A DNA stretch of 64,000 nt, taken from Cornus controversa (taxonomy: Eukaryota; Streptophyta; Magnoliopsida; Cornales; Cornaceae). Made by a program: the position numbers and the translations under genes. Of this stretch, positions 715 to 28,815 are shown piece by piece (position 1 is the first letter of the stretch; each line of letters starts with the position of its first letter). The stretch lies in contig CM048849.1 of assembly GCA_026545225.1 (NCBI GenBank), positions 54,320,836 through 54,384,835 of the forward strand, in the 5' to 3' direction. Under the pieces are notes generated by a model. It had not been told where the DNA came from. It was given only the letters and a program-made list of their open reading frames with translations, and searched no databases.

Positions 715-2727
715 GCTATACATAAATGCAGAGAACTTTGTATTAAGAGTTCCACAACCACTTTACAAACAATTGCATCACATTCAATCATTTTTAAACA
801 CAATAATCTCCCAGAATATTTCTCTGATCTCTACTTATTCTACATCTCCATTATAAATTTCTTGTTCCCTGCCTCCTCTAATCAATTTATCTATCTACAT
901 CTCCCTCACTTTCTATCTCACTCCTTGTTATCTCCCTCCTTCTACCTCCCCTCTTGTTACGATTCAGTCTCGCAATTCTTTGTACATAATTAAAAGTCCT
1001 CTTAATTGAGGCAAACAAGAACTCAATAGGGAGTTTGGTATTCTCTTTCCCTAGCCAATCGTCTGATCTAACACAAACTTCAAAGGAGATACTTGTGTTC
1101 AACCAACTGATATTATATCCAGCTGACTTCACAGCTCTGGCATGCCTGCACACGCTGACAATTCAATTGGTCTACTTGACTGATTAATTGATTAAAAATA
1201 TTTTGGCACACCCGGTGGGACTGGAAAAGTGCTAAAGAATTGAGAATATGCCACCTAAGCTAAGGTCCACACAGAACTCAGCCATTGGCGATGATGAGCA
1301 AGAGGAAGACTTCTCTCAGCCTTTCAGAGGCCCCGCAACCAACCCGTTAGATTTGGCAATCCTAATAGATGTTATACATACTTTGCACATTTAAATCGGT
1401 GAGGTTCAGACCAACATGGGTCAAATGGATGAGAAGATTACCCAGAATAGTGCTCGTTTTAATGATCGTATAGAAAAAGTGTTAAAACAGTCAACCATTC
1501 AGAACCAACCGATCATTCATAGCCCCATCACCCAAGATGCGACTTATCAACCGAATGCTCATCAAGCAGACTAAAAACAGAAAGGCCCAATATTACCTTC
1601 GCCTCAGCCTTTTGCACAAAGTAACCTACCGTCTAACAGCTCTCAACCTAGTGAAGCAAAAAATCAGTTATCGACTAAAATCGCAAACAGACGGCTGTCT
1701 GAGCAGCAACAGGTACACTCTCATAATAACTTCATAAGTTCAATCAACCTTAGAGAGGACCCCAACTAGGGAAGAAGGCAAGACCCCCCGATCGCACCTG
1801 CACCCGGGGGGCATGTAGAAAACTGACCATTTAGGTGGCAGGAACAGGAACAACAAATAAATCATGATGCTCTTGGGTTTTACCCCAAAATGCCTCATAC
1901 CATTTGAATAGAACATACTACATATAAGCACATCCCCTTTTCCACACCCAGGCGATGAGGAATTGAGCACCTTGTACCTTATTAGTGTGGTAGCTCAGCC
2001 CAGTGTCTATCTTTGCACCCGCCCACTCACACCCATCCACAAGGGTTACTACAATCCACCCCCTACGAGACCCGACGTCCTCGTCGGCACACTTTCGGCT
2101 GGGTTCAGGCTCTGATACCAACTGTAATACCCCCGCTCCAACACATGGTATGATATTGTCCACTTTAGGCCTGAGCCCGCACGGTTTTGCTCTTGGATTT
2201 TACCCCAAAAGGCCTCATACCATTTGAAGACAACATACTACATATAAACACATCCCCTTTTCCACACCCAGGCGATATGGGATTGAACACCTTATACCCT
2301 ATCAGTGTGGTAGCTCAACCCAGTGTCTGTCTTTGCACCCGCCCACTCATACCTTCCACAAGGGTTACTACAAGAACAATTATGTCCCGAACTATCAGCT
2401 AATATAGTTGAGGTGATCGAGCTTGACACTAAAAAACTAGATGCAATACAGTTGGCAGATTTGGAATCAACCCTAGCAAAATTAGATAATCTTAAGGCGG
2501 AGGTACAAAATCCTTTGCTAGATATAAATTTGGGGACAACTGGTGATCCTCGGCCTACGTATATTAATGCTCTTTTAGAGCCTAAATTCCAGGCTGAGAT
2601 GATCAAGCTGTTGAAAGAATTCAAAGACTATTTTGTCTAGAATTATGAGGAGATGTCGGGTTTGTCAAGAGAGATGGTAGAACACAAGCTGCAAATTCGG
2701 GAAGGGTATAAACCTCTCTATAAAGTT
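715..2727 (+). mobile_element. Ty3-gypsy LTR retrotransposon remnant
   Basis: Broken remnant on the + strand. An LTR-like segment at about 720-1195 is followed by a gypsy-type leader (TTTTGGCACACCCGGTGGGA near 1199) and then a gag-like segment beginning about 1247. From about 2373 to 2727 there is a piece of pol that reads like the start of a gypsy reverse transcriptase. Most of pol and the second LTR are absent. The interior is split by a nested miniature LTR element (1867-2372). A diverged copy of the LTR, without internal sequence, lies inverted at 24412-24848. The leader style suggests the Tat/Athila side of the family, which is inference. The element is heavily decayed with many breaks, hence old. 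Confidence 0.7.
1867..2372 (-). mobile_element. TRIM-like miniature LTR element nested in gypsy remnant
   Basis: One full terminal repeat (2123-2372, about 250 bp, TG...CA ends) and a shortened second copy (about 1867-2053) lie in direct orientation around an interior of only about 70 bp. Next to the full repeat, at 2111-2122, is the complement of TGGTATCAGAGC, the plant initiator-Met-tRNA primer-binding site, which orients the element on the minus strand. There is no coding capacity, as is usual for TRIM elements. It interrupts the gypsy remnant and is therefore younger than it. One repeat is incomplete, so it is broken. Confidence 0.72.
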
Positions 2728-3714
2728 ATTGTTGATACCATCATCAATATCTCTTATGGGTTCCAGAAATAAAACCACGAGATAAGGTGAAATAGTTGTA
2801 GACTATACATGTAAAATAACTGTCAAAAAAATAAGACTAAAACCAATTGCCCGACTAACAATTGTCGAAGGTCTAACTAGGTATAGGAATAACACTGGCC
2901 TCATTACTTATATCCATATGTCAAGAAATATTGGTTCGTAGAGAAATATTACGAATCATACAAGCATATAAGGGCTGGTCCTGGAAATAAATTACATTGA
3001 TTGATATTTTCATTCCTCCTTTCTGTCCTCCGTTTCCTCCTTGTGATTTTGGGATACTCTTCAGTAAAAATTTCTCCGTTCGGCTCCACTATAATTCTCA
3101 TTATTACCTCAGGATGAATCTCAAGTTTATGTGCAAGCACAGCAACTCGAATCACACAACTCTCAATTCGGTTGATAGCAGAACCATTCATCACAAAATT
3201 GAAGGTATTCTAAGTCTTCCACTTATGACTAACCGCTGTCATTGCTAGCCACTTAATCAGATTTGCAATACCTGATAAATCATCAAAAGAATTTTATTTT
3301 GATATTCTTCTTTTTCTCAATTATTATTATGAAAAAACAACTCATTAATTTATTTTATTTTTGGTAAAATGAATTATATTGAAGATAGCATTACTCAAGA
3401 AAAAAATAAAAAAATTAAAGTCGACTAATAACACCCGTTTTTGAAAATATATTAATTGATTAATAATGAATTGAATTATTATATATATTACTATTTCGTA
3501 TTCCCGCCGTCGTGTCCATGTCATATTTTTTTGTATATATCACTATTTCTTATTCTTGCCGTGTCGATTTCCTATTTTATATATATATATATATATATTA
3601 GTATTTCGTATTCCCATCATTTATATATATATATATATATTAGTATTTCGTATTCCCATCATTTCCATGTCCTATTTTTTAAATAAAAAAAATCGTGACT
3701 TCCTAGGTTAGCAC
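2728..3714 (-). repeat. tandem pair, copy 1: unrecognised coding-like segment
   Basis: This segment recurs at 3970-4924 with a period of about 1242 bp. Both copies begin with ATTGTTGATACCATCATC and end in CTTCCTAGGTTAGCAC. On the minus strand an open frame of 81 codons (2949-3194) contains AHKLEIHPEVIMRIIVEPNG followed by a Lys/Arg/Glu-rich tail. The same peptide is part of every full unit of the array further right, but here no copia sequence is joined to it. The minus strand also shows splice-acceptor-like TTTTTGACAG, so this may be a relic of a host gene with introns. I do not recognise the protein. The right third is TA-rich with repeated CGTATTCCC motifs. Confidence 0.65.
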
Positions 3715-3969
3715 TAAAGTCATCACTTTCCATATTCAATACCAAATCAACTCACTTGTTAGAGATGCATTAGTACCACGTCAAGCCTGAGAGGTTTCAA
3801 AGATTTAACAAACAAACATGCTAATTGATGAAATTTTCATAACATTGACAAAAGTTGTGCTACAACAAATAGAATTAGCCATTTGAATAATGCATGGAAA
3901 GTACAATACTAATTGCATTTATGAAATGTTAATACCTTCAATATTCACATAAAATAAAACTATAAGGCT

Positions 3970-4805
3970 ATTGTTGATACCATCATCAATATCTCCTGTC
4001 GGTTCCCAAAATAAAAGCATTAAGGTGAAATAATTCTAGACTATGCAAGTAAAATAACAACTGTCAAAAAAATAAGACTAAAATCAATTACCGGACCAAC
4101 CATTGTCGAAGGTCAACTCGGAATAGGAATATCACTGGGCTCATTACTTATATCATATGTCAAGAAATATTGGTTCTTAGGGAAGTATTAAGAATCATAC
4201 AAGCATATAAGTGCTGGTCCTAGAAATGAAGTATATATTTTCATTCCTTTCTATTATGTCCTACATTTACTCTTGGTGATTTTGGGATACTATTCAGTAA
4301 AAATTTGTTTGTTAGGATCAACTGTAATCCTCATTATTAACTGAAGATAAATCTCAAGTTTATGTGCAAACGCAGCAACTCGAATCATGACTTTCTGAAT
4401 TCGGTTGATAACAGAATCACCCATCACAAAATTAAAAGTATTCTTAGTCTTTCACTTATGACTAACTGCTGCCATTGGTAGCCACTTAATTAGGTTGACA
4501 ATGTCTGATAAATCGTCAAAAGATTTCATTTTGTTATTCTTCTTTTTTCAATAATTATTATGAAGAAAACAACTCATTAATTTTTATTTTTTTGGTAAAG
4601 TGAATTATATTGAATATATCTTTAGTATATAAAAAAAAAAGAGGATACATTAAAGCCTATTAACAACACCCTCTTTTGAAAATTTATTCATTGTTTGATA
4701 TTGAATGGAAGTATTAATTTATATAATATTATTTCGTATTCCCGCCGTGTCTATATTACATTTTTTTATATATGTTATTATTTCTTATTACCGTCGTATT
4801 CTAGT

Positions 4806-4858
<53 letters not shown>

Positions 4859-4924
4859 TTGTATTTCCGCCATCTCTATGCCCTATTTTTTTAAAAAAAA
4901 ATTTGTGACTTCCTAGGTTAGCAC
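3970..4924 (-). repeat. tandem pair, copy 2: unrecognised coding-like segment
   Basis: Second copy of the 2728-3714 segment, at roughly 80-85 percent identity by eye. It has the same order: intron-like part, coding-like part near 4200-4450, then AT-rich tail with a long TA run at 4808-4855. The coding-like frame is more decayed than in copy 1. A 255-bp unique spacer (3715-3969) separates the copies. Confidence 0.62.
4808..4855. repeat. TA microsatellite
   Basis: About 24 uninterrupted TA dinucleotides, one of the longest simple repeats in the window. It lies in the AT-rich tail of the second tandem copy. Confidence 0.9.
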
Positions 4925-5579
4925 AGATTTCCTATTTTTCCATCTTTAAAACCATCATCTTATTCTCCTTGCTCTACTTCTAATCCATCTTCAACTGGCA
5001 AAAAACTACTTATAAGTATTGATGAAGCAAAAAATCCACCCCGAACTGGTCAAACACCAACCTGTAAAAAGGACAAGAAAAGAGTAATCGAAATGGCATT
5101 GGCGCAATGCCGGTCGACTACGCTCCGACAATTAAGTCAGAAATCGAAAAGGCTTTAAAGCTGTAAAGGAACTCAGAGGGTATTAATTGCGTACCTTGGT
5201 ATATGAATCGTCTAGTATTTATAGTGACCAAGCGAAAGGCGTGTCTTAGTAAAACTCTACCTCCTCAACTTCCTTTTCTCTCTTGGGGTTAAATAGTCTT
5301 AGTCAAAGTATTCCTATCTTCCATGTCACATGTTTCATATTAGGAGTCAAACACCTATCAAGTATAATCCTCAAAGGGTCGTTGAGTCCAACGAACACTG
5401 GTTTCCACGTTTGGTCACTGAATACTGGAAAGATGTAGACTACTTATACCAACACCAACCAATAATATAATGACTGTGATGCAGGACAGATTGTTGTGTG
5501 TGCGTGTGTCTCTAACTATATATATATATATTTTATCTATATTGAATAATAAATAATTAACCCACTTGTTAGAGATACA
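4925..5579. other. unassigned stretch, possible LTR fragment
   Basis: No gene is seen. The middle (about 5080-5400) is less AT-rich and resembles promoter/LTR-type sequence of plant retroelements (CGGTCGACTACGCTCCGAC near 5111), but no partner repeat or primer-binding site is visible, so the assignment is weak. A short TA run lies near 5516-5531. Confidence 0.3.
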
Positions 5580-7718
5580 TTAAGAGCATATCAAGTCATC
5601 AAACATTGAACTCTATTTCAATGTAGTTCACTGAAATGAAAAAATAGTGTATCTTTACCCAAGTCAAAGACTTATACTGCACATACAAAATATAATACAA
5701 TTATAATGGAAAAAAAATCTAACTATATAAAAGAAAAAAAAAAGAAATAATAGTCACCTCAAAAGCATCTAGCAGTCCGCCTTCAGCGTTTGGCTCGCTA
5801 ATAGCCACTATTGAAATGTCCTCATGAATACGTTTTGGTGAAGATATCAGCAGCTTGAGTAGTAGAACTAACAGAAACTAATCTAAGAGTACCCTAAAAC
5901 AGATGATGATGTAAAAAATACAATCAAACTTAATGTGTTTGGTGTGTTCGTAAAAAAACATCATTATAAGCCAATCTGGATGGCACTACGATTGTCACAA
6001 TGAAGAGTAGTGACAGAAGAATTTGTAATACCCATGTCTTCTAACAACCAACATAACCAAAGAAGTTCAGATGCGGAGTCAATAAGCGCTCAGTATTTAG
6101 CCTCAATACTAGAGCATCAACAAAAGTTTGCCTTTTGCTACGCCATGAGATAAGGGAATCTTGCAAAGAAGTAGTAGCCAGTGATAGAACAACAATCAGT
6201 TGGGTCTCCAGCCCAATTAGCCTAAGAATAAGCATTATTAGCAGTAACTCAAATCATGCTTTTATGATTTCGGTTGATAGCAGAACCGCCCATCACAAAA
6301 TTAAAGAACTTCTTAGTCTTCCACTTATGACTAACCGCTGCCATTGGTAGCCTCACTTAATCAAGTTTGCAATACCTTATAAATAATCAAAGGATTTCAT
6401 TTTGATATTCTTCTTTTTTTCTCAAATCCTCTATCTTCCTAATTGTCTGAGTTTAGCCTATCGAATTCAACTGTCTTTTCAGTGATTTCTTAATTTAGCT
6501 CATCCCTTCTCTCCCTATTTTTGTCTCATTTCGAATAAGAAGCTAACCGCATAAGATTTGCAAGATCATCTTTGGCGACTCTCAACCCTTTTTCAATATA
6601 GTTCACTGAAACGGAAAAATCATGTATCTTTGCCCAAGTCAAGGGATTATACTGCACATACAAAATATAATACAATTATAATGAAATAACAGCTAACTGT
6701 GTAAAAAAAAAAAAAAATTAGTCACCTCAAAGGCATATAGCAGTCCGTTGCCAATGCCACTATTGAAAACGTACTCATGAATGCATTTTGGTTAATATAT
6801 CAACAGTCTGAGTTGTAAAACTAACAAAAATAATCGAAGAGTACCCTAAAACAGATGATGACGTAAAAAATGACAATCAAGCTCAATGTGTTTGGTGCAT
6901 TCGTGGAAAATATAATTATGAGTAATCTTGATGGCATCATGATATTTTCACAATGAAGAGTAGTGGTAGAAGAATGTGTAATACCTATTTCTTCTGACAA
7001 CCAACATAACCAAAGAAGTTCTGATGTCGTGTCAGCAAGCGCTCGGTATTCAGCCTCAGTACTAGACCGTGCAACAACGGTTTACTTTTTACTACACCAT
7101 GAGATAGAGGAATCTCTTAGAAAAAATCAGTAACCAGTGATAGAACGACAATCAGTTGGGTCTCCAGCCCAATAAGAATCAGAATAATCATTATTACCTA
7201 TTTGTCCATTAGGCTCCACTATAATCCTCATTATTAGCTCAGGATGAATCTCAAGTTTATGTGCAAATGCAACGACTCGAATCTTGCCTCCATGAATTCT
7301 GTTGATAGCAGAACCACCCATCACAAAATTAAAGATCTCTTAGTCTTCCACTTATGACTAACCGCTGCCATTGGTAGCCACTTAATCAGGTTGGCAATGC
7401 CTGATATATAATCAAAGGATTTCATTTCGATATTATTCTTTTTTCTCAAATCCTCTATCTTCCTAATCGTCTTTGACTTCAGCCTATCGAATTCAACCGT
7501 CTTTTTAGGGATTTCCTGATTTAGCTACTCCATTCTTTCCCTATTTTTGTCTCCATTATAATAAGAAGCTAGCTGATTAAAATCTCTAAGATTATATTTG
7601 GCCTCTCTTAACACTTTTTCAGCGTTTGGGTCGCCAATAGACACTATTGAAAGCATCCTCATTAATGCATTTTGGTGAAGATATCAGCAATTTGAGCAGC
7701 ATAATTAACATAAACTAA

Positions 7719-9231
7719 TTGATTCATGTGTGAGTGTGACTCAAAAATATATCAATTAAAAATTTCCACACTTCGCAATAGAACGAATTCCTTGCAGAAT
7801 AGGGCTATCGAAAGGGGTATCGTACCTCAGGGATTATGGTCTGATGAGTTGGAATACAGAATTAATTCTAATTAAATTTGTAAGAAAAGAATTCTGATTT
7901 TTAAACTAAATTAATTAAAAAGTAAAATAAAATAAATCAAAGATAAATAAGATAGTGAAGATAATATGAGAGAAATTTAGGGTGTTTGACTTCACCACTA
8001 ACTCCACAATCAATGGTCAATTGAATCAACTATAGGGGAATTACATCATGCATAAGTGGTGTTGGTGGCTACAAGCTCACCTTCATCCGTCAAGAAGATA
8101 ACATATGATTAAGGCTAAGCCATGGACTATCTTCGATTGGCATGGGCCATCTGCCTAACTACTCTAATTTAGGGTGCAGTATGGTTCATCTTCTCTAGGA
8201 ATAATCCATCAAAGCTCATAACAATATATTCAGTGATTACCATTGTGTAATAATCTCTCTCATGATCACAAAAAATAAGAGAGATTGAGTTCAACAACAA
8301 TAACTAAATATCTAAGACAAGATAAGAAATCATTGAGATTGAATTTACAAGACTTTTATTACTCAATTCTATAATAAGAATCCTCTAAATTACACAATCT
8401 ATGCATGTATATAAAGGTCCCCAATAATTAAAACAATCAAACCATTGATGCTTTGTTAGGGCTACATCAAAACCCTAGTGGATGAACTAGCCGCTCATGG
8501 TAGAAGAAGAAGCTTCAACTGTTGAGGAAGAAGACATCATCTTTCTGACTTCTGCGTATGACTTCGTTCTCCAATGGCTCTGCAATATGTTTCTGTTCTC
8601 TTCTCAGCCCTCTCCAAGCTCTGTTCTCTCTGTCTAATCTCTCCCCAATTCAGCCTCCAAGTCTTCACTTTATTCCCCAAGAGAATACACCAAAGTCCTA
8701 ATCCAATTAGGAATAAATTAGGGTTTCCCGCAGCACTAATCAGGTGGGTTTTTCCTGCTGACTTCGGCCCAACTTTTGACCCACTAGAAATCCGATTTAT
8801 GAAATTTTTGTAAAATACAAAAGTGTGCAGAATCAAATTTCGTTCAACTCTACGCAAAAATAATGTCGATTTGAGGCTCGAAAATAAGACTTCTGATCCG
8901 TTTTCCAAAATGGGATTAAGACTGTATTATGCGCAGATTTAGGCTTCAGGCCCGAAACCTTCTTAAACAGTTGTAATTCTCTTGGACCTCTTTCTTGGGC
9001 TGATTTGAGTTGAAATAAATGGTTGAGTGAATCTCCTTGATGTAGGCTTCATCTCACCATCTTGGATGTCTTTTTTAAAAACCCAAAAGCTTGGTTTTAA
9101 CTGAAATAATCATTAAGACCCTGAAAATACCGAAAACACTAAAACGAAGTAAAATAACAAAATAATTTATCACTAAGAGAATAAAATACATAACTTAAAA
9201 GGCTAGAATGCGTAACATTCAACGCCTATCA
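7719..9231 (-). mobile_element. LTR-like element (probable solo LTR), copy A
   Basis: A stretch of about 1.5 kb found twice in the window (other copy 22498-23967). In minus orientation it begins TGATAGGCGTTGAATGTTAC and ends past AATTGATATA. Length, TG start and lack of any coding frame fit a solo LTR of a long-LTR gypsy-type family, but no primer-binding site or internal domain confirms this. The array units on its two sides are not directly continuous: about 0.6 kb of unit is missing across the junction, so rearrangement accompanied or followed insertion. No clear target duplication was found. Confidence 0.55.
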
Positions 9232-10130
9232 GGTTTGTAATGTCTGATAAATAATAAAAGGATTTCATTCTCGTATTCTTCTTTTTTTTCAAATTCTCAA
9301 TCTTTCGTCTTCGACTTTAGCCTATTGAATTCAACCGTCTTTTTAGTGATTTCCTAATTTAGCTCCACCATTCACTCCGTATTTTTGTCTCCTTTAAAAC
9401 AAGAAGCTAGCTGCATAAGATCTACAAGATCATCTTTGGTGTCTCTCAACCTTTTTTTAATGGAGTTCAATGGCTTATACCTTACATACAAAATGTTATA
9501 AAATTATAATGAAAAAATAGTTAACTCTGTAAAAATAAAAAAAATAATAGTCACCTCAAAAGCATCTAGCAGTCTACCCTAAGTGTTTGGGTCGCCAATA
9601 GCCACTATTGAAAACATCCTCATCGATGCGTTTTGGGGAAGATATATGCAGTCTGAGCAAATAGACTAACAAAAACTAATCGAAGGGTACCCTAAAGCAG
9701 ATGATGACGTAAAAAATGACAATCAAACTCAATGTGTTTTGTGTGTTCGTGGAAAAACATCATTATGATCAATCTTGATGGCCCTACAATAGTCACAATG
9801 AAGAGTAGTGGCAGAAGAATGTGTAATACCCATGTCTTCTAACAACCAACATAACTAAAGAAGTTCAGATGATGTGTCAGCAAGCACTCGATATTCAGCC
9901 TTAGTACTAGACCGTGCAACAACGGTTTGCTTTTTGCGACGCCATGAGATAGGGGAATCTACGAAAAAGAAGTCATAGTCAGTTATAAAATGATAATCAG
10001 TTGGTCCTTAGCCTAATCAGCATCAAAATAAGCATTATTAGTTATTTGTCCATTAGGCTCCATAGTAATCCTCATTATTAGCTCAGGATGAATCTCAAGT
10101 TTATGTCCAAACGCAGCAACTCGAACCATT

Positions 10131-10401
10131 ACTGCAAAAGCCCAAAATAGTAATTGAAATTTGCACAACTAAATGTTGAAATTGCTATCCATGCCTATTA
10201 TTGTTCGACAAGTTGATGGATCCCGTAAAGATACATTGGCCAAGAAATCATGTATTAGACACAATTTAGTGGGTTGCTACTTATTTGTAGATCATCTACT
10301 GTGTCTAGAATTTAATTTCTTTGCTAAAAATATGTTTTGTCTGTGTACTCAGGGTAATGAGTGCGTCTCCGTATGTCGGCAAGCAATCTCTGGATTGCAG
10401 T
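10131..10401. mobile_element. 271-bp insertion with short terminal inverted repeats
   Basis: This sequence interrupts one array unit between two points that are adjacent in the other units. It begins ACTGCAA and ends TTGCAGT, a perfect 7-bp inverted repeat. It has no coding features and no second copy in the window. A small non-autonomous DNA transposon is the simplest reading. The target duplication is not clear. Confidence 0.5.
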
Positions 10402-13400
10402 GCCTCTATGGATTCAGTTGATAGCAGAAGCAACCATCACAAAATTAAAGATCTTCTTAGTATTCCACTTATGACTAACCACTGCCATTGGTAGCCACTT
10501 AATTAGGTTGGCAATTCTTAATAAATAATCAAGGGAATTCATTTTGATATTCTTATTTTTTGTCAAATCCTCCATCTTCCTAATCTTCTTTAACTTCAGC
10601 CTATCGAATTCAACCGTTTTTTAAGTGATACCTGATTTAGCTCTTCCATTCTCTCATTATTCTTGTCTCCTTTAGAACAAAAAGCTAGCTGCATAAGATC
10701 TGTAAAATCATATTTGGCGTCTTTAAACCCTTTTCAATATAATTCACTGAAATAGAAAGATCGCATATCTTTGCCCAAATCAAAGGCTTACACTGCACAA
10801 ATAAAACGTAATACAATTATAATAAAAAAAAAATAGCTAACTGTGTAAAAGAAAAGAAGAAAGAAATAATAATAACCTCAAAAGCATCAAGCATCCGCCT
10901 TCAGCGTTTGGGTCGCCAATAACCACTATTGAAAGCATCCTTATTAATGTGTTTTGGTGAAGATATCAGCAATGTGAGCAGTAGTACTAACAAAAACTAA
11001 TCGAATAGTGCTTGAATCAGTTGATGGCATAAAAAATGACAATCAAGCTTAATGTGTTTGGTGTGTTAATGAAAATATCATTATGAGCAATCTTGATGGC
11101 ACTGCAATTGGCACTGTAATACCCATGTCTTCTAATAACCAACATAACCAAAGAAGTTCAGATATGATGTCAGCAAGCGCTCGATATTCAGCCTCTAGAC
11201 CATGCAACAACAGTATGCTTTTTGCTACGCCATGAGATAAGGGAATCTCCTAGAAAGAAGCATCAGAATAAGCATTATTAGTTATTTGTCCCTTATGCTC
11301 CACTGTAATCCTCATTATTTGCTCAGGATAAATCTCAAGTTTATGTGCAAACGCAGCAACTTGAAGCTAGCTCCCTTCTCTCCCTATTTTTGTCTCCTTT
11401 AGAATAAGAAGCTAGCTGCATAAGATCTGCAAGATCATCTTTACCATTTCTCAACCCTTTTTCAAAGGAGTTCACTAAAACGAAAATATCGTGTATCTTT
11501 GCCAAAGTCAATGGCTTATACTACACATACAAAATATAATACAATTATAATGAAAAAATAGCTAACTATATAAAAGAAAAAAAGAAAAAAATAACCGTCA
11601 CCTCAAAAGCATCAAGCAGTCCGCCTTTAGCATTTAGGTCGCCAATAGCTACTTTTAGAAATTTCCTCATGATTGCGTTTTGGTGAAGATATTAGCAGTC
11701 TGAGTAGTAGAACAAATAAAAACTAATCGAATAGTACCCTAAAGCAGATGATGATGTAAAAAATGACAATCAAACTCAATGTGTATGGTGCGTTCATAAA
11801 AAAAATCATTATGAGCAATCTTGATGGCACTGCGATTAACACATTGAAGAATAGTGGCAAAACAATGTGTAATACCCATGTTTTCTAACAACCAACATAA
11901 CCAAAAAAGTTCAGACGTGGTGTTAGTAGGCGATCGGTATTCAGCCTCAGTACTAGACCGTGCAACAATGGTATGTTTTTTGCTAAGCCATGAGATAGGG
12001 GAATCTCCTTGAAGGAAGCAGTAGTCAATGATAGAATGACAATCATTGGGTCTCCAGCCTGTAGAATAAGTGTTATTAGTTATTTGTTCGTTAGCCTCCC
12101 ATGTAATCCTCTTTATTAACTCAAGATGAATCTCAAGTTTTTGTTCAAACGCATCAACTTGAATCATGCCTCTATGAATTTGGTTGATAGTAGAACCACC
12201 TATCACAGAATTAAAGATTTTTCAGTCTTCCACTTATGACTAATTGCTACAACTGGTATTCAGCCTCAGTATTAGACCATGCAACAACGGTATGCTTTTT
12301 ACTACACCATGAGATAGGGGAATCTCCTGGAAAGAATCTGTAGCCACTGATAGAACGATAATCAGTTGAGTCTCCAGCCCAATCAGCATCAGAATAAGCA
12401 TTATTAGTTATTTGGCCCTTATGCTCCATTGTAATCCTCATTATTTACTCAGGATGAATCTCAAGTTTATGTGCAAACGCAGCAACTTGAATCATGCCTC
12501 TATGAATTCGGTTGATAGCAAAACCAACCATCAAAAAATTAAAGATGTTTTAAGTCTTCCACTTTTAACTAACTACTACCATTGGTAGCCACTAAATTAG
12601 GTTGGCAATGCCTAATAAATAATCAGAGAATTTCATTTTGATATTCTTTTTATTTTCAAATCGTTCATATTCCTAATCGTGTTTGACTTTAGCCTATCGA
12701 ATTCAACCGTATTTTTAGTGATTACCTGATTTAGCTCCTCCATTCTCTCTCTATTTTTGCCTCATTTAGAATAAGAAGATAGCTGCATAAGATCTGCAAG
12801 ATCATCCTTGGCGTCTTTTAACCCTTTTTCAATGGAGTTCACTAAAACGAAACAAAAACATCACGTATCTTTGCCCAAGTCAAGGACTTATACTGCACAT
12901 ACAAAATATAATACAATTATAATGAAAAAATAGCTAACTATGTAAAAGAAAAAAGAAAGAAATAATAGTCACCTCAAAAGCATCTAGCAATTCGCCTTCA
13001 GCGTTTGGGTCACCAATAGCCACTTTTGAAAACTTATCATGATTGCATTTGGGTGAAGATATCAACCGTCTGAGCAATTAATCAAACAAAAACTAATCGA
13101 AGAGTACCCTAAAACAGATGATGACATAAAAAATGACAATTAAGCTCTATATGTTTGGTGTGTTCGTAAAAAAAATCATTATGAGCAATCTGGATGACAT
13201 TGCAATTGACACACTGGATGACATTGCAATTGACACAATGAAGAGTAGTGGCAAAAGAAGGTGTAATACCCATGTTTTCTGAAAACCAAATGACCAAAGA
13301 AGTTCAAATATGGTGTCACTAGACGCTCGGTATTCAGCTTGAGTACTAGACCGTGCAACAACGGTTTATTTTTTACTACGCCGTGAGATAGGGGAATCTT

Positions 13401-16400
13401 TTTAAAAGAAGCAGTAGCCAGTGATAGAATGATAATCATTTGGGTCTCTAGCCCGATCAGCATCAGAATAAATGTTCTTACCTATTTGTTCGTTAGCCTC
13501 CCCTGTAATCCTCATTATTAGCTCAAAATGAATCTCAATTTTTTTTTAAACGCAACAAATCAAATCATGTGTCTATGAATTCGGTTGATAGCAGAACTAC
13601 CTGTCATAGAATTAAAGATCTTCCACTTATGACTAACCACTACCATTGGTATCCACTTAATCAGGTTGACAATGCTTGATAAATAATCAAAGGATTTCAT
13701 TTTGATATTATTCTTTTTTCACAAATCCTTCATATTCCTAATCGTCTTTGACTTTAGCCCATCAAATTCAACCACCTTTTCAATTATACCCGATTTAGCT
13801 CATCCCTTCTCTCCCTATTTTTGTCTCCTTCAAAATAGGAAGCTAGCTGCATAAGATCTACAAGATCATCCTTGGCGTCTTTTAACCCTTTTTAAATGAA
13901 GTTCACTGAAACGAAAAGACCACGTATCTTTGCCCAAGTCAATGGCTTATACTGCACAAACAACATATAATGCAATTATAATGGAAACAAGCTAACTATG
14001 TAAAAGAAAAAAAGAAAGAAATAATAAACTGAAAAGCATCAAGCAGTCTGCCTTTAGCGTTTGGGTTGCCAATAACCACTATTGAAAATGTTCTCATGAA
14101 TGTATTTTGGTGAAGATATCAACAGTTAGAGCAGAATAACTAACAAAAATTTATCGAAGAGTACCCTAAAGCAAATAATGGTGTAAAAAATAACAATCAA
14201 GCTCAATGTGTTTGGTGCGTTCGTGAAAATACATCATTAATAACAATCTTGATGGCACTGCGATAGTCACAATGAAGAGTAGTGGCAGAAGAATGTGTAA
14301 TGTCCATGTCTTTTAACAACCAATATAACCAAAGAAGTTCAGATATTGTGTCAGCAAGCATTCGATATTCAGCCTTAGTACTAGACCGTGTAACAACGGT
14401 TTGCTTTTTGCGATGCAATGAGATAAGGGAATATACGAGAAAGAAGCCGTAGCCACTGATAGAACGATAATCAGTTGGGTCTTGCCCAATTAGCATCAAA
14501 ATAAGCATTATTAGTTATTTGTTCGTTAGGCTCCACAGTAATCCTCATTATTAGCTCAGGATGAATCTTAAGTTTCTGTCTAAACGCAGAGTCATGGCTC
14601 TATGAATTCAGTTGATAGTAGAACCACTCATCACAAAATTAATAATATTCTTAGTCTTCCACTTATAACTAACCGCTGCTATTGGAAGCCACTTAATAAG
14701 GTTTAACCAATTTTTTAATGATTTCCTGATTTAGCTCCTCTATTCTCTCCCTATTTTTGTCTCGAATAAGAAGCTAACTGGATAAGATCTGCAAGATAAT
14801 CTTTGGCATCTCTCAACCATTTTTCAATAGAGTTCACTGAAATGAAAACATCGCGTATTTTTGCCCAAGTCAATGGCTTATACTATACATACAAAATATA
14901 ATACAATTATATTGAAAAAATAGCTAACAGTGTAAAATAAAATAAAAAAGAAATAATAGTCACCTCAAAAACATCTAGCAGTCCGCCTTGAGCGTTTGGG
15001 TCGCCAATAGCCACTTTCGAAAACTTCCTCATGATTGCGTTTTGGTGAAGATATCAACAGTCAGAGTAGTAGAACAAACAAAAACTAATCGAAAAGTGCC
15101 CTGAAGCAGATGATGACATAAAAAATGACAATCAAGCTCAATGTGTTTCGTGCTTTCGTCAAAAAATATCATTATAAGCAATCTGGATGACACTGCGATT
15201 GACACAATGAAGAGTAGTGGCAGAAGTATTTGTAATACCCATGTTTTCTGAAATCCAACATAACCAAAGAAGTTCAGATATGGTGTCAGTAGGCGTTCGG
15301 TATTCAACCTCAGTACTAGACCGTGCAACAACGTTTTGTTTTTTGCTGCACCATGAGATAGAGGAATCTCTTGGAAAGAAACAGTAGCGAATGATAGAAC
15401 GACAATCAGTTGGGTCTTTAGCCCAATTCAACATCAAAATAAGCATTATTAATTATTTATCCGTTAGGCTACACTGTAATCCTCATTATTATCTCAGGAT
15501 GAATCACAAGTTTATGTGCAAATGCGGTAACTCAAATCATGTTGGCAATGCTTGATAAGGATTTCATTTTCATATTCTTCATTTTTTCTCAAATCCCTCA
15601 TCTTCCTAATCGTCTGACTTCAACCTATCGAATTCAACCGTCTTTTCAGTGATTTCTTGATTTAGCTCCCCCTTCTCTCTCTATTTTTGTCTCCTTTAGA
15701 ACAAGAAGTTAGCTGCATAAAATCTGCAAGATCATCTTTGGTGTCACTCAATCCTTTTCAATGGAGTTCACTAAAATAGAAGGATAGCGTATCTTTGCCC
15801 ATATACAAACAAAATATAATACAATTATAATAAAAAAAATAGCTAACTGTGTAAAAAAAAAAAAAAAAAGAAATAATAGTCACCTCAAAAGCATCTAGCC
15901 GTCCGCATTCAGTGTTTGGGTCGCATATAGCCACTATTGAAAACGTCCACATGAATGCGTTTTGGTGAAGATATCAACAGTCTGAATGGTAAAACTAACA
16001 AAAAATAATCGAACAATACCCTGAAACAGATGATGACATAAAAATGATAATCAAGTACAATGTGTTTGGTGCGTTCGTGAAAAAACACCATTAGGAGCAA
16101 TCTTGATGGCACTACAATTGTCACAATGAAGAATAGTGGTAGAAGAATGTGTAATACTCAAGTCTTCTAACAACTTACATAACCAAATAATTTCAGACTG
16201 TCCGACAACGGTATGCTTTTTGCTACGTCATGAGATAGGGGAATCTTCTCAAAAAAGTAGCGAATGACAATCAATTGGATCTCCAGCCCAATCAGCATCA
16301 GAATAAGCATTATTAATTATTTGTCCGTTATGCTCCACATTAATCGTCATTATTAGCTCATGATGAATCTCATATTTATGTGCAAACACAGCAACTCAAA

Positions 16401-17067
16401 TCATGTCTCTATGAATTCAGTTGATAACAGAACCACCCATCACAAAATTAAATATCTTCTTAGTCTTCCGCTTATGACTAACCGTTGTCATTGGTAGCCA
16501 CTGAATCAGGTTGGTAATGCTTTATAAATAATCAAAGGATTTTATTTTGATATTTTTATTTTTTATCAAATCTTCCATCTTCCTAATCGCGTTTGACTTT
16601 AATCTATCGAATTAAACCGTATTTTCAGTGATTACTTGATTTAGCTTATTCATTCTCTCCTTATTTTTGTCTCTTTTAGAACAAGAAGCTAGTTACATAA
16701 GATCTGCAAGATCATCTTTGGTGTCTCTCAATCTTTTTCAACGGAGTTCAATAAAACGTAAAGATCGCGTATCTTTTCCCAAGTCAATGGCTTATACCGC
16801 ACATACAAAATATATCACAATTATAATGAAAAAATAGATAATTATGCAAAACAAAAAATAAATAAATAATAGTCACATCAAAAGCATCTAACAGTCTGCC
16901 TTTAGCGTTTAGGTCGTCAATAGCCACTATTGAAAACGTACTCATGAATGTGTTTTGGTGAATACATCACCAGTCTGAGCAGTAGAACTAACAAAAACTT
17001 AAAAAAAATACCCTAACAAAGATGATGACGTAAAAAATGACAATCAAGCTCAATGTGTTTGGTGCGC

Positions 17068-17637
17068 TCATGAAAAAATATCATTACGAGGAATCTGGAT
17101 GGCACTGCAATTGTCACAATGAAGAGTAGTGGCAGAAGAATGTGTAATACCTATGTCTTCTAAAAACCAACATAACCAAAGAAGTTCAGATGTGGTGTCA
17201 GCAAGCGCTCGATATTCAGCCTCAGTACTAGACCGTGAAACAACAATTTTCTTTTTGCTACGCAATGAGATAGTGGAATCTCCTGGAAAGAAGCAGTAGT
17301 CAATGATAGAATCGCAATCAGTTGAGTCTCTAGACGAATCAGCATCAGAATAAGCATTATTAGCTATTTGTCCGTTAGGCTCGACTGTAATCGTCATTAT
17401 TAGCTCAGGATAAATCTCAAGTTTATGTGCAAACGCAGCAACTCTAATTATGCCTCTATAAATTCGGTTGATAGCATAAGCACCCGTCAAAAAATTAAAG
17501 ATCTTCTTAGTCTTCCACTTATGACTAACCGCTGCCATTGGTAGCCACCTTATCAGGTTGGCAATGCCTGATAAATAATCAAAGTATTTTATTTTGATAT
17601 TCTTCTTTTTTCTCAAATCCTCCATCTTACTAATCAT
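17068..17637 (-). pseudogene. longest open fusion frame in the array (fossil)
   Basis: An uninterrupted 189-codon frame spans the seam between the unrecognised segment and the copia RNase H fragment. The N-terminal part is rich in Lys and Glu (MEDLRKKK near the start), followed by WLPMAAVSHKWKTKK at about residues 31-45 and AHKLEIYPE at about 74-82. The RNase H part follows from about residue 97 to the end. Other units keep the same seam but are more broken. There is no start-site context, promoter or sign of a complete gene, so it is best seen as a relic whose frame survived by chance or by recent duplication. The non-copia half is not a family I recognise. Confidence 0.5.
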
Positions 17638-20600
17638 CTTTGACTTCAGCCTATCGAATTCAATCGTCTTTTCCTTATTTTTGTCTCATTTAGAACAATA
17701 AGCTAGCTGTATAAAATCTGCAAGATCATCTTTGTCATCTCTCAACCATTTTTCAATGGAGTTAACTAAAACGGAAACATCAAATATCTTTTGCTCAAGT
17801 CAAGTGCTTATACTGCACATACAAAATATAATACAATTATAATGAAAAAATAGCTAACTATGTAAAAGAAAAAAATAATAGTCACCTCAAAAGCATCTAA
17901 CAGTCCGCTTTCAACGTTTGGATCGCCAATAACCACTATTGAAAATTTCCTTATGAATGCGTTTTGGTGAAGATATTAGCAGTCTAAGCGGTAGAACTAA
18001 CAAAAACTAATCGAAAAGAACCCTAAAAAAGATAAAAACGTAAAAAATGACAATCAAGCTTAATGTGTTTGGTGCATTCGTGAAAAAACATAATTATGAC
18101 CAATTTGGATGGCCCTGCGATTGTCACAATGAAAAATAATGACAGAAGAATGTGTAACATCCACGTCTTCTAACAACCAACATAACCAAAGAAGTACAGA
18201 TGTGGTGTCAGCAAGCGCTCGATATTCTGCTTCAGTACTAGACCATGCAACAACGGTTTGCTTTTTGCTACACCATGAGATAGGGGAATCTCCAGGAAAG
18301 AAGCAGTAGCCAGTAATAAAACGATAATCAGTTGGGTCTCCAGTCTAATCAGTATCAGAATAAGCATTATTAGTTATTTGTCCATTAGGCTCTACTGTAA
18401 TCCTCATTCTTAGCTCAGGATGAATCTCAAGTTTTTGTGCAAGCACAGTAACTCGAATCATGCCTCTATAAATTCGGTTGATAGCAGAACCACCCATCAC
18501 AAAATTAAAGATCTTCTTAGTCTTCCACTTATGACTAACTGCTACCATTGGTAGTTACTTAATCAGGTTGGCAATGCCTAATAAATAATGAAAGGATTTC
18601 ATTTTTATAGTTTTCTTTATTTCTCAAATCGTCCATCTTCCTAATCGTTTTTTACTTCTGTCTATCGAATTCAACTGTCTTTTCAGTGATTACCTAATTT
18701 AGCTCTTCCCTTCTCTTCCTATTTTTGTCTCCTTTAGAATAAGAAGCTAGTTGCATAAGATCTGTAATATCATCCTTGGCGTCTCTAACCTTTTTCAATG
18801 AAATTTACTGAAACGGACAGATCGGGAATGTATACCCAAGTCAAGAGCTTATACTACACATACAAAATATAATACAATTATAAGGAAAAACAGCTAACTC
18901 TGTGAAAGAAAAAAAATAATAATAATAGTAACCACAAAAGCATCTAACAGTCCGCCTTCAGTGTTTAGGTCATCAATAGCCACTATTGAAAACGTCGTCA
19001 CGAATTCATTTTTGGTGAATATATCAGCAATCTGAGTAGTAGAACTAACAAAAACTAATCGAAGAGTACCCTAAAGCATATGATGATGTAAAAAATATCA
19101 ATCAAGCTCAATGTTATTAGTGCGTTCGTGAAAAAACATCATTATGAGCAATCTAGATAATCTTGCAATTGTCACAATAAAGAGTAGTTATAGAAGAATG
19201 TGTAATACCCATATCTTCTAACAACCAACATAACCAAAGAACTTCAGCTGTGGTGACAGCAAGCGCTCGATATTCAGCCTTAGTACTAGACCGTGCAACA
19301 ACAGTTTGCTTTTTACTACGCCATGAGATAAGGGATCTCCTGGAAAGAAGCAGTAACCAGTGATAGAACGATAATTAGTGTGGTCTCCAGCCCAATCAGC
19401 ATCAAAAAAGGCATTATTAGCTATTTGTTCGTTAGGCTCCACTGTAATCATCATTGTTAGCTCGAGATAAACCTCAAGTTCATGTGCAAACACAGTAACT
19501 CGAATCATGCCTCTATGAATTCGGTTGATAGCAGAACCACCAATCAAAAAATTAAAGATTTTCTTAGTCTTTCACTTACAACTAACCTCTGCCATTTGTA
19601 GCCAGTTAATCAGGTTGGCAATGCCTCCGAATAATCAAAGGATTTCATTTTGATAGTCTTTCTTTTTTCTCTCAAATCTTCCATCTTCATAATTATCTTT
19701 AACTTTAGCCTATCAAATTCAACTGTTTTTTTAAGTGATTACCTAATTTAGCTCATAGCCCTCCCTCTTTATTTTTGTCTCCTTTAGAATAAAAGGCTAG
19801 CTGCATAGGATTTGCCAGATCATCTTTGGCATCTCTTAACCCTTTTTTAATGGAGTTTACTAAAACAGAAAGATCCCGTATCTTTGCCCAAGTCAAGGGC
19901 TTATACTGCCCATCAAAATATAATATAATTATAATGAAAAAACAGTTAACTATGTAAAATAAAAAAATAAAAAAATAATAGTCACCTCAAAATCATCTAG
20001 CAGTCCGCCTTTAGTGTTTGGGTTGCCAATAGCTATTACTGAAAACATCCTCACAAATGTGTTTTGGGGAAGATATTAGCAGTCTAAGCAGAAGAACTAA
20101 CAAACACTAATCGAAGAGTACCCTGAAGCAGATGATGACATATAAAATGACAATCAAGATCAATGTGTTTGGTGCGTTCTTGAAAAAACATCATTATGAG
20201 CAATCTGGATAGCACTGCGATTGTCACAATGAAAAGTAGTGGTAGAAGAATATGTAATACTCATGTCTTATAACAACTAACATAACCAAAGAAGTTCAGA
20301 TGTGGTGTCAGTAAGCGCCGATATTCAACCTTAGTACTAGAACGTGCAACCACGGTTTGTATTTTGCCATGCCATGAGATAGGGGAATCTCCTAGAAAGA
20401 AGCAGTAGCCAGTGATAGAACGGCAATCAGTTGGGTCTCCAGCCCAATCAACATTAGAATAAGCATTATTTGTTATTTGTTATTTGTTTGTTAGGCTCCA
20501 CTGTAATCCTCATTATTAGCTCAGGATAAATCTCAAGTTTATGTGCAAACGCAACAACTCTAATTGCCTCCATGAATTCAGTTGATAATAGAACCACCCA

Positions 20601-22497
20601 TCACAAAATTAAAGATTTTCTTACTCTTCCACTTATGACTAACCGCTGCCATTGGTAGCCATTTAATCAGGTTGGCAATGCCTGATAAATAGTCAAAGGA
20701 TTTTATTTTGATATTCTTCTTTTTTCTCAAATTTTCCATTTTTTTAATCGTTTTTTACTTCAGCTTATCGAATTCAACTATCTTTTCAATGATTTCCTGA
20801 TTTAGCTCCTCCATTCTCTCCCTATTTTTGTCTCATTTAGAACAAGAATCTAGCTGCATAAGATCTGTAAGATCTTTTTTAGTGTTTCTTAACCCTTTTT
20901 CAATAGAGTTCACTGAAACGAAAAAATCACCTATCTTTGCCCAAGTCAAGGGTTTATATTTCATATAAAAAACATAATACAATTATAATTAAAAAAATAG
21001 CTAACTGTGTAAAAGAAAAAAAGAAAGAAATAATAGTCACCTCAAAAGCATCTAGCAATCTGCCTTCAGCGTTTGGGTCGCCAATAGCCACTATTGAAAA
21101 CGTCCTCATAAATGTGTTTTGGTGAAGATATCAACAGTCTGAGCAGTATAACTAACAAAAACTAATTGAAGCGTACCTTGAAGTAGATGATGACGTAAAA
21201 AAATGACAATCAAGCTCAATGTGTTTGGTGCGTTCATGAAAAAATATCATTACAAACAATCTGTGTGGCACGACAATTGTCACAATGCAAAGTAGTGGCA
21301 GAAGAATGTGTAATACCCATGTCTTTTAATAACCAACGTAACAAAAGAAGTTCAAATGTGGTGTCAGCACGTACTCGGTATTTAGGCTCAATACTAGATC
21401 ATACAACAACGGTTTTTTTTTTTTGCTATGCCATGAGATAGGGGAATCTCCTATAAAAATGCAGTAGCCAATGATAGAACGATAATCAGTTGGGTCTCCA
21501 ACCCAATCAGCATCAAAATAAGTATGAAGCTCGAGGGAAGAGTGAGCTAAGCAGTGAAGAGCCTGAAATAAAGTGCCCTTAATATAATAAAGAATGTGAA
21601 GTACCACAGCAAAATGAGAAGAACGAGGAGCAGACATAAACTGATTGATTAAGTGAGCAGCATAAACAATATTAGGGTGTGTAACTATAAGATAGACCAA
21701 ACTGTCAACTAGCTGGTGATAAAGAGTAACATCACAAAGCGGTATGCCATCTAACAGGGTAAATCAAAGATTAGATTCCAGAAGAGTTGATGCAGTCTTA
21801 CTATCAGTCAGGCCGACGTGAGATAAGAGATCAGAAGCTTACTTAGCCTGAGAGAGATAGTAACCATCAGAAGTAGAGGAGACTTCAAGACCTAGAAAAT
21901 AACTAAGAGGGCCAAGATCTTTCGTTTCAAAGTGTTGGCTAAGAAATTGCTTCAGATATTAGATTCTGGAGAAATCATCACCTATGATAATCATGTCATC
22001 CACATAAAGTTAGAGAAAACAAATCCCTGCATCAAGCTTGCGAATGAAAAGAACGATGTCATGTGAGCTTAAGGTGAAACCAAAATGCCCAATTGTAGTA
22101 CTGAATTTTGCAAACCAAGCTCTAGGTGCATGTTCGAGACCATACAGAGCACGATGAAGTTTGCAAACTTGTTGTGAAGACTGAGGAAACCTAAGGGGAG
22201 GTTGCATGTAAACTTCTTCTTATAAATCCATATTGAGAAATACATTTTTGACATCCATCTTGAAAATCTCCCATTTACGGACAACAGCACCATGACATGT
22301 CGATGACATGGTGGCACAGATTTGACATGGTAATGATGAGTTAGATGACGTGGCTGGATGACGCGGCATAATCGTAAATCTGGCACTGACATGTTAGATG
22401 ACAAAGCAGGCTGACGAGGCAAATAGGTTGACGTGGCTGATGGACTGGTGCGTGACAGCGTGTGACAAAAGTCGACAACACGTGACGTAGCGTGCAG

Positions 22498-23967
22498 TTG
22501 ATTCATTGGTAAGTATATCAATTAAATTACTACACTTCGCAATAGAACAAATTTCTTGCAGAATAGGGCTATCGAAAGGGATGTTTAACCTCAGGGACTA
22601 TAATCTGACTGAGTTGGATATACGAAATTAATTCTAGTTAAATTTCAAAAAAAAGAATTCTGATTTTTATAACTAAATTAACTAAATAATCAATTAAAAT
22701 TAAATAAGAGAAACTAAAGAGTGTAGAAAATATGAGATGAATCTAGGGTTGTTGATTTCACCAATAACTTCACAATCAATGGTCAATTGAACTAACTATG
22801 GAAAATTATACCGTGCATAAGTGGTGTCAGTGGCTACAAGCTCAACTTCATCCGTCAAGAAGATAATATATGATTAAGGCTAAGTCATGAACTATCTTCG
22901 ATTGGCATGGGCCATTTGCCTAACTACTCTACTCTAAGGTGCAGTATGGTACATCTTCTCTTGGCATAATCCATCAAAGTTTTTAATGATATATTCAGTG
23001 ATTACCATTGTGTAATAATCACTCTCATAATCACAGAAAATAAGAGAGATTGAATTTAATAACAATAATCAAGTATCTAAGATAAGATGAGAAATCATTG
23101 AAACTGAATTTGTAAGACTTTTATTGCTCAATTCTAAAAGAAAAATCCTCTAAATTACACAATCTATGCATTAATACAAAAATTCCAAATAATGAGAACA
23201 ATAAAACATTGATGTTTAGTTAGGGTTACATCAAAACCCTAGTGGATGAACTAGCCGCTCATGATAGAAGAGACTGCTTCAACTGTTAAGGAAGAAGGCG
23301 TCATCTTCATGGAATATGCGTAAAACCTTGTTCTCCAATGGTTTTTCACTCTAAAGCTCTGTAAGTTGCTATTCAAAAGTCTCCCCAATCTCTTAATACA
23401 GCCTCTCGTTCGCCACTTTAAACCCCCCAAGAGAATAAGAATAGTCCTTATCCAATTAGGAGATAATTAGGGTTTTTTCGCAACCCTAAACAGGTGGATT
23501 TCTCTACTGACGTTCGACCCGAGTTTTGACCCACTAGAAGTCCGATTCATGAAACTTTTGTGAAATACAAAAGTGTCCAAAATCGAATTTCATTTTACCT
23601 AATTAAGAATTGAGTCAATTTGATGCTCAAAAATAAGAGTTACTGGCTGTTTTCCAAAACTGGATTGTGCGCAGAATTGGGCTCAGGCCCGGAATCTTCT
23701 TAAACAGTTATAATTCTCTTAGACCACTTCCTTGGGCTGATTTGAGTTCAAATACAGAGTTGAATGGATCCATTTGATGTAGGTTTCATATAACCCTCTT
23801 AATGTCTTCTTTAAAAATTCAAAATCATGATTTTAACTGAAATAATCCTTAAGGCCCTGAAAATACATAAAACACTAAAACAAATTAAAATCACAAAATA
23901 ATCTCTCACTAAGAGAATAAAATATGCAAATTAAAAGGCTAGAATGCGTAACATTCAACGCCGATCA
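22498..23967 (-). mobile_element. LTR-like element (probable solo LTR), copy B
   Basis: Second copy of the 1.5 kb element at 7719-9231, in the same orientation, with about 85-90 percent identity by eye across its length. It lies within the copia remnant between the reverse transcriptase side and the gag-like/5' LTR side, so it inserted after the copia element. No coding frame of note. No clear target duplication. Confidence 0.55.
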
Positions 23968-24200
23968 GCAGTGGACCAGAATGTTCTAGCAGCACGTGAG
24001 GACTTATTTTTGATGGTTTCTAGTGGCTACGAAATCGTCTCAGCCTGTTCTTTTGCCTAATGTGATCGATATAGTTAAATAACACTTGGAAGAGTTGTTT
24101 ACGACACTAGACAGAAGTTGTGTGATAATTGACATGCCACCATGAAATTAATGAACGAAAGAGGAAAAAAAGGATTTTATGAACCTTAACTTTGATACCA

Positions 24201-24401
24201 TGTTAAATTAAGAGGAGAGAGAATAAGAGAAATCTCTATTATTTTAGTATATATTATATCAATTTTACAATACACATAAGGCCTATTTATAGGCATATAG
24301 TCTTGGAGACTAAGTTTACTTAGGAGATAAGAAACCTAATCCTAGATGGATTAGGATAGGATATACAATATACAAACATATATAATAGATATACACTAAC
24401 A
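24201..24401 (-). repeat. copia 5' LTR
   Basis: A 201-bp terminal repeat of the copia remnant, recognised from its TG...CA ends and from the adjacent primer-binding site complement (CTTTGATACCA at 24190-24200). It contains a TATA-like CTATAAATAGG on the minus strand (near 24287), typical of copia LTR promoters. The matching 3' LTR is not present in the window. Confidence 0.75.
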
Positions 24402-24411
24402 CTACTGTTCG

Positions 24412-24848
24412 ATCAATTAATCGACTGGACAGGCCGATTATATTATCAGCGTGTGTGTGGGTGTGCCAGAGCCATGAAATCGGCTCAAGAGAAAAATCAG
24501 TTGGTCGAACATAGTATCTCTTTTAAGTATTGTGTTGGATTAGGCGATTGGCTAGAGAGAAAGAATATCAAACTCTCTATTGAGTTCTTTTTTGCCTCAA
24601 TGAAGAGGACTTTAAAGTGCGCAAAGAATTGCGAGATTGAATCGTAGTAAGAAGGGAGGTAGAATGAGGGAGATAATAAGGAGAGAGATGTAGATAGACT
24701 GACTGATTAGAGGAGGTCGGGAGCAAACAAGTATGAGGGAGACGTAAAGTAAGGAGAGATAAAGAGCAATATTTTGTGAAAGATTACAAGATGCAATGTT
24801 TGTGAAGTGGTTATGAAACCCTAAACTAGGAGTTTCATTTATTTATAG
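24412..24848 (-). mobile_element. gypsy LTR fragment, inverted relative to 720-1195
   Basis: In reverse complement this segment matches the gypsy LTR segment at about 720-1195 along most of its length (shared CTCGCAATTCTTTG, CTCTAGCCAATCG-like and GCTCTGGCA blocks). It has no internal element attached and abuts the copia LTR within 10 bp. It is a solo or truncated LTR of the same old family. Confidence 0.65.
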
Positions 24849-28119: not shown

Positions 28120-28815
28120 TTTTAGTTTCATCGATTCTTATCATTATTTGATTTTAGATGTGTCTTAACTAACTAAAATTTAAATAGTTTTATTTTCGTG
28201 AAAAATTGTACCTTAGAGGTTTTAATTTCTTTGAACTTCTTTTTCTTTTACCCCTCTCCTAATGAGTTTCCACTTTTTAGAGGTTTTACTGATTTTGTTT
28301 TTAGTTTCAAGTTTTTATCAGTATTTGAATCTGACTGTGTCTTAACTTACTAAAATTTAGAAAGTCTTATTTTGATGGAAAATTGTACCTTACGAGTTTA
28401 AATTTCTTTGAACTTCTTTTTCTTTTACCCCTCTCCTAATGAGTTTCCACTTTTTAGAGGTTTTGCTGATTTTTGTTTTTAGTTTCGTAAGTTCTTATCA
28501 TTATTTGAATCTAACTGTGTCCTAACTAACTAAAATTTAGAAAGTCTTGTTTTGATAGAAAATTGTACTTTTTCTTTGAAGTTCTTTTTCTTTTACCCCT
28601 CTCCTAATGAGTTTTCACTTTTCAGAGGTTTTACTGATTTTTGTTTTGAGTTTCACGAGTTCTTATCATTATTTGAATCTAATTGTCTTAACTAACTAAA
28701 ATTTAGAAAGTCTTATTTTGATGGAAAATTGTACTTTAAAAGTTTAAATTTCTTTGAAATTCTTTTTCTTTTACCCCTCTCTCAATGAGTTTTAACATTT
28801 TAGAGGTTTTACTTA
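28120..28815. repeat. tandem repeat, about 4 copies of 165-180 bp
   Basis: The block CTTTTACCCCTCTC recurs at about 28246, 28422, 28590 and 28768, each time within the same longer context (AACTAACTAAAATTTA before it, TTTTTAGAGGTTTTACTGATT after it). Spacings are about 177, 168 and 178 bp, in the range of plant satellite monomers. There are only four copies and no coding content. Confidence 0.85.

Follow-up and report, generated by a model that had tools for sequence, protein, structure and literature searches.

A local tandem array in Cornus controversa that joins the end of a copia pol region to an apparently spliced gene piece

A 64,000-nucleotide stretch of the Cornus controversa genome (C5:54320836-54384835, hereafter the window) contains a tandem array of 16 whole or partial direct units, arranged head to tail and all on the minus strand, in which the end of a copia retrotransposon pol region is joined to a piece of a gene that is here called gene X. 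The array is probably non-functional and local, the product of one fusion and one rapid amplification (or of a period of uniformity that was then frozen), followed by neutral decay. Self-BLAST of the window places direct ~1.0-kb repeats in a lattice over 5606-21525, and a unit matches the window at 73.7-88.3% identity. The tandem array described in the first-pass annotation is therefore real, but its bounds (5580..21280) and its count of about 14 copies do not hold; the source copia continues beyond the array to 24401. Splitting the array at the seams gave 16 unit bodies, U01 (at 21525) to U16 (at 5606), which were aligned with each other. Their lengths range from 330 to 1058 bp, with U12 measured without its last 85 bp. 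Seven of the 16 (U01-U05, U08 and U09) are at least 1.0 kb long, and the other nine are shortened.

Read along the minus strand, a unit starts with ~430 bp from the end of copia pol (RNase H), crosses seam 1 into the gene X piece, and is linked by a filler of ~9 nt after gene X exon 2 to the following unit, at its RNase H. The gene X piece consists of a 17-codon remnant of exon 1, an intron of ~80 bp with GT..AG ends, and a 160-codon exon 2. Seam 1 (copia to gene) lies at the identical place in all 15 units that span it, U10 being without it. Seam 2 (gene, filler, copia) is complete and alike at 13 of the 15 unit junctions; the U15-U16 junction preserves its right half only, and the U13-U14 junction is lost beneath an insert. 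The filler of the U01-U02 junction contains an additional 7-nt repeat, and the U08-U09 junction is more diverged. Both seams are thus common to the units, as had been claimed.

U01 runs unbroken into the pol region of its source copia, in which Pfam detects a copia-type reverse transcriptase (RVT_2, E 1.6e-9). When this adjoining pol is compared with six copias from elsewhere in the genome (L001-L006), four align as a single piece over ~21094-22289, L004 aligns in two pieces, and L006 aligns only as far as 21544. Beyond the seam position, all six continue into other sequence toward the start of a long terminal repeat (LTR). One relative, L005, has two LTRs that are 89% identical; the window copia retains a 5' LTR, and a search for its 3' LTR from 20000 up to seam 1 gave no LTR match. 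Because unit 1 is continuous with pol and the 5' LTR is present, U01 can be recognised as the edge copy, still attached to its source. A tree was built from 14 units, leaving out two with less than 300 bp of RNase H, and from 22 copias picked among the genome locations listed; the two sets fall on opposite sides of one branch (FastTree support 0.998). The copia origin proposed for this part of the unit is borne out by the upstream RVT_2. No RNase H domain was recognised by Pfam in the pieces of the units scanned (17071-17685 and 21329-21763), so we take the copia half to be RNase H from its place after RVT_2 and from its motifs.

The two shared seams and the continuation of U01 into the source copia support a single founding copia-gene fusion, after which a tandem duplication would have broken inside RNase H. 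One fusion amplified as a block had been proposed in the first-pass annotation, which also counted the upstream, gene-to-RNase H seam (seam 2) as one of two chimeric seams. That seam is indeed shared, but because U01 is continuous with the pol of the source copia, it is best read as a tandem-duplication junction.

Judged from its sequence, the gene X piece is formerly coding and spliced. In the frame that follows seam 1, none of 177 codon columns is a stop in at least half of the units, against 15 and 20 majority-stop columns in the other two frames of exon 2. This open frame and the GT..AG intron uphold the earlier description, in which a piece of copia adjoins a segment of a coding gene that has an intron. 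Searches of the assembly (771.7 Mb in 61 contigs), in which only the best candidates were scored, placed all 22 DNA matches of the gene half inside this window and none elsewhere, and whole-genome protein searches with gene X gave nothing beyond this locus below E 0.45 (C3, E 0.45 in one search; C3, E 0.88, and C2, E 3.1, in another). The locus of the C3 match at E 0.45 (L025) was rejected as a gene X relative, as its sole short match, to 5495-5531, looks like a simple repeat. Gene X might also have continued 5' into the stretch from 24402 on, but this was rejected because that stretch is a dispersed repeat.

Comparison of gene X with Pfam gave only weak matches, the best of which, RSS_P20 (E 0.0045), was found in one of the nine members of the scanned set and was absent from member 1; it may be a chance match to helical sequence, and was treated as such. 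The best matches in three PDB searches were SIW14 (E 1.3), none, and S100-A6 (E 0.23), and the predicted fold of the longest open gene piece has a mean predicted local distance difference test score (pLDDT) of 44.5. As the genome, Pfam and PDB searches gave no convincing relative, the donor of gene X may have been lost, may be too diverged, or may be missing from the assembly.

The 14 longer units (91 pairs) differ by a mean pairwise distance of 0.163, within the range of 0.139-0.189, and the standard deviation of these distances is 0.0098, compared with 0.0129 expected from sampling alone. The clustering of neighbouring units on a tree that had been anticipated was not found, neighbours being no closer than other pairs (Mantel r -0.19, p 0.94). 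Distances in the copia half and in the gene half are uncorrelated (r -0.19). The units form a star tree with small later groups. The mean Kimura two-parameter (K80) distance between units is 0.187, which at an assumed plant substitution rate near 7e-9 per site per year places the array at roughly 13 million years of age, uncertain by at least twofold.

The three codon positions of exon 2 have changed equally (0.092/0.097/0.097), which shows that the units have decayed neutrally and have been under no coding constraint since they were amplified. Of the 569 exon 2 changes, 298 are G>A or C>T. For RNase H, the corresponding values are 0.115/0.108/0.070 over the first 300 columns and 0.104/0.116/0.078 overall; the third-position excess expected of a gene family under selection is seen in neither exon 2 nor RNase H.

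To the left of the array are two parts of gene X exon 2 without copia, and after each of them comes a degraded piece from the N-terminus of a patatin lipase that is presumably SDP1-like (Table 1). The lipase pieces sit within a direct duplication (2718-3744 / 3960-4954, 80% identity). Lipase relatives are found on C8 and C4, and the open reading frame of the C8 relative (L023) has both DUF3336 (E 1.2e-30) and Patatin (E 3.3e-19). The window pieces contain neither domain; they match the N-terminus of L023 in tblastn at E 0.001 and 0.002, and its DNA at 72-82%. The distances of the two flanking gene X parts from the units are 0.158 and 0.182, compared with 0.145 between units over the same stretch, and these parts would be about as old as the units.

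A history in four steps is proposed. The sequence itself indicates that a copia whose 5' LTR is still present lost its 3' end and that, just past the conserved pol terminus, it was joined to a position within an exon of the spliced gene X. A tandem duplication would then have led from gene X exon 2, by way of ~9 nt of filler, back to the RNase H region of this copia, giving the ~1.0-kb unit; the seams of this step are legible, and its repair route is inferred. The star tree suggests that multiplication would have been fast, for example by rolling-circle copying with re-insertion or by repeated unequal crossing-over, or alternatively that the array was held uniform until exchange ceased. The copies then decayed independently, lost pieces and gained inserts, as is visible in the units themselves.

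Several observations weigh against this history. The star is imperfect, as U07/U09/U11 (99/98), U08/U13 (96/96) and U08/U10 (91/95) form groups, and the partly alternating arrangement of these groups along the array suggests that two units were later duplicated together as a block. Exon 1 (17 codons) has an unexplained unevenness of change among codon positions (0.129/0.071/0.067). The flanking parts are about as distant from the units as the units are from each other, so the first gene X duplication may have come before or after the fusion.

It is improbable that the array began as a new chimeric gene whose duplicates formed a gene family that later died. The frame of such a gene would extend from an ATG in the copia tail through exon 1, over the intron, and through exon 2 and the filler into ~102 RNase H codons. 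The RNase H frame in phase with gene X indeed meets no majority stop before codon column 102, the gene X frame lacks any majority stop, and an ATG is present at seam 1 in 11 of 15 units but at that place in none of the six genome copias. However, since coding parents explain the open stretches, the chimeric frame is given little weight; about one junction in three would be in the correct phase by chance, and the codon positions have been without constraint since amplification. There is a slim chance that the array records a gene otherwise lost here, by way of an in-frame chimera, one rapid burst and a short-lived chimeric gene family; if so, nothing but the remains of that family would document the parent gene in this genome.

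Gradual growth through unequal crossing-over between neighbours, recent or ongoing, also has little probability: the three groups named above hint at later duplication of two-unit blocks, but distance does not rise with separation along the array (by the Mantel test above) and the lowest of the 91 pair distances is still 13.9%. A Helitron- or Pack-MULE-type gene-capturing transposon, which would have united gene X with the SDP1-like piece ahead of the copia fusion, is unlikely, despite the two unrelated gene pieces that share one orientation in the left flank, and would supplement a single fusion rather than replace it, as the array would still require both fusion and duplication. That the array is an assembly artefact is scarcely credible. 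Long tandem repeats are susceptible to such errors, but a duplicated contig is implausible because the 14 longer units all differ pairwise at 13.9-18.9% of sites, and the units show private deletions and inserts.

Table 1. Coordinates, within the window, of the array, its units and seams, the source copia and the gene pieces of the left flank
Feature	Positions	Strand
Source copia: 5' LTR ~24401-24201, RVT_2 22219-22013, pol end 21094; contains repeat 22499-23967	21094..24401	-
Whole tandem array, 16 units and two foreign inserts	5606..21525	-
U01, edge unit, upstream continuous with source copia pol	20482..21525	-
Seam 1 of U01, where the end of copia pol meets exon 1 of gene X	21093..21094	-
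Seam 2 of the U01-U02 junction, gene X exon 2/filler/RNase H, filler variant with extra 7-nt repeat	20475..20481	-
U02	19423..20474	-
U03	18376..19415	-
U04, with longest open gene-to-RNase H frame (17071-17685, 205 amino acids)	17366..18368	-
U05	16319..17358	-
U06, shortened	15455..16311	-
U07, shortened	14517..15447	-
U08	13484..14509	-
U09	12419..13476	-
U10, 330 bp, middle deleted, without seam 1	12082..12411	-
U11, shortened	11281..12074	-
U12, split by insert 10126-10400	10045..11273	-
U13, shortened, cut by insert ~7720-9231	9227..10036	-
U14, shortened, on other side of insert ~7720-9231	7200..7722	-
U15, gene end deleted	6242..7192	-
U16, partial, left end of array	5606..6241	-
Gene X exon 2 part without copia, left-flank copy 1	4303..4549	-
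Degraded N-terminal piece of SDP1-like (presumed) patatin lipase, after gene X copy 1	3964..4191	-
Gene X exon 2 part without copia, left-flank copy 2	3070..3320	-
Degraded N-terminal piece of SDP1-like (presumed) patatin lipase, after gene X copy 2	2727..2951	-

Two foreign inserts break the array, at ~7720-9231 and at 10126-10400. The first is an abundant repeat with TG..CA (LTR-like) ends, at which no target-site duplication was seen, and the units on either side of it (U13 and U14) are cut at differing positions; together, these features suggest that some units were removed by recombination at the insert. The second, 275 bp within U12, is 97% identical to C1:104602850-104603124, beyond which the genome search gave no match, and the few bases shared at its ends point to a recent break repair in which templated sequence was inserted.

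The sequence at ~7720-9231 has a second copy, 81% identical, at 22499-23967, and both belong to a very abundant sequence of ~1.5 kb (8651 first-look candidates). Because both have TG..CA ends and the copy at 22499-23967 also has a 5-bp target-site duplication (GCAGT), they are probably solo LTRs; they were rejected as parts of the copia or of longer units, since they belong to another abundant sequence. A further probable solo LTR of 341 bp is found at 5020-5360, with TG..CA ends, an AGTAT target-site duplication and 2999 first-look candidates in the genome. The dispersed repeat that adjoins the 5' LTR of the copia, at 24402-25100, has 1079 first-look candidates and an inverted relative at 804-1192. 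Elsewhere in the window are a 177-bp tandem repeat of 3.9 copies (28120-28813), direct duplicate pieces 12.7 kb apart that are 75-87% identical (29639-30782 / 42385-43669), and a direct duplication with 89% identity (57204-57671 / 58088-58561).

The term satellite, which had been used for this array, is too strong. The 16 head-to-tail units in one orientation are a satellite trait, but many copies, several loci or very long arrays are not seen, all 22 matches of the gene half being at this locus among the best candidates scored, and neither is the homogenisation of units, given a mean distance of 0.163 and neighbours that are no closer. Local tandem duplications yield side-by-side direct copies with one junction and a few nucleotides of filler, and the array resembles them in each of these features; it differs in having sixteen units in a star tree instead of a few copies of nested age. 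In chimeric genes formed by retrotransposons, a piece of a host exon is joined to retroelement coding sequence. The array likewise combines an exon piece with coding sequence of a retroelement, the reading frame being kept across seam 2, but unlike such genes it keeps an intron, has no 3' LTR match and consists of copies that decay neutrally. As the intron is kept, the gene piece would not derive from a spliced transcript.

At this one place the birth of a tandem repeat is legible, from the source element through the first fusion and the duplication junction to later decay; the star tree separates a burst from gradual growth, and an array can evidently be seeded by coding sequence of pol combined with a piece of a spliced gene. 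Among the titles and abstract openings that searches of an open-access library listed, there was no report of a tandem unit made of pol and a spliced gene, which is weak evidence of novelty. Tandem arrays derived from retroelements are already known, so the unusual nature claimed for the unit applies to its spliced gene piece without a findable donor, and not to the array as a kind. In Lathyrus sativus, most of the satellites studied arose from repeats in the 3' untranslated regions of Ogre elements (PMC7004042). There, as in Cornus controversa, a piece of an LTR retrotransposon seeds a tandem array; the Lathyrus sativus source is short tandem repeats of the Ogre 3' untranslated region, dispersed genome-wide (PMC7004042), whereas here copia pol coding sequence and a spliced gene piece form 16 copies at a single place.

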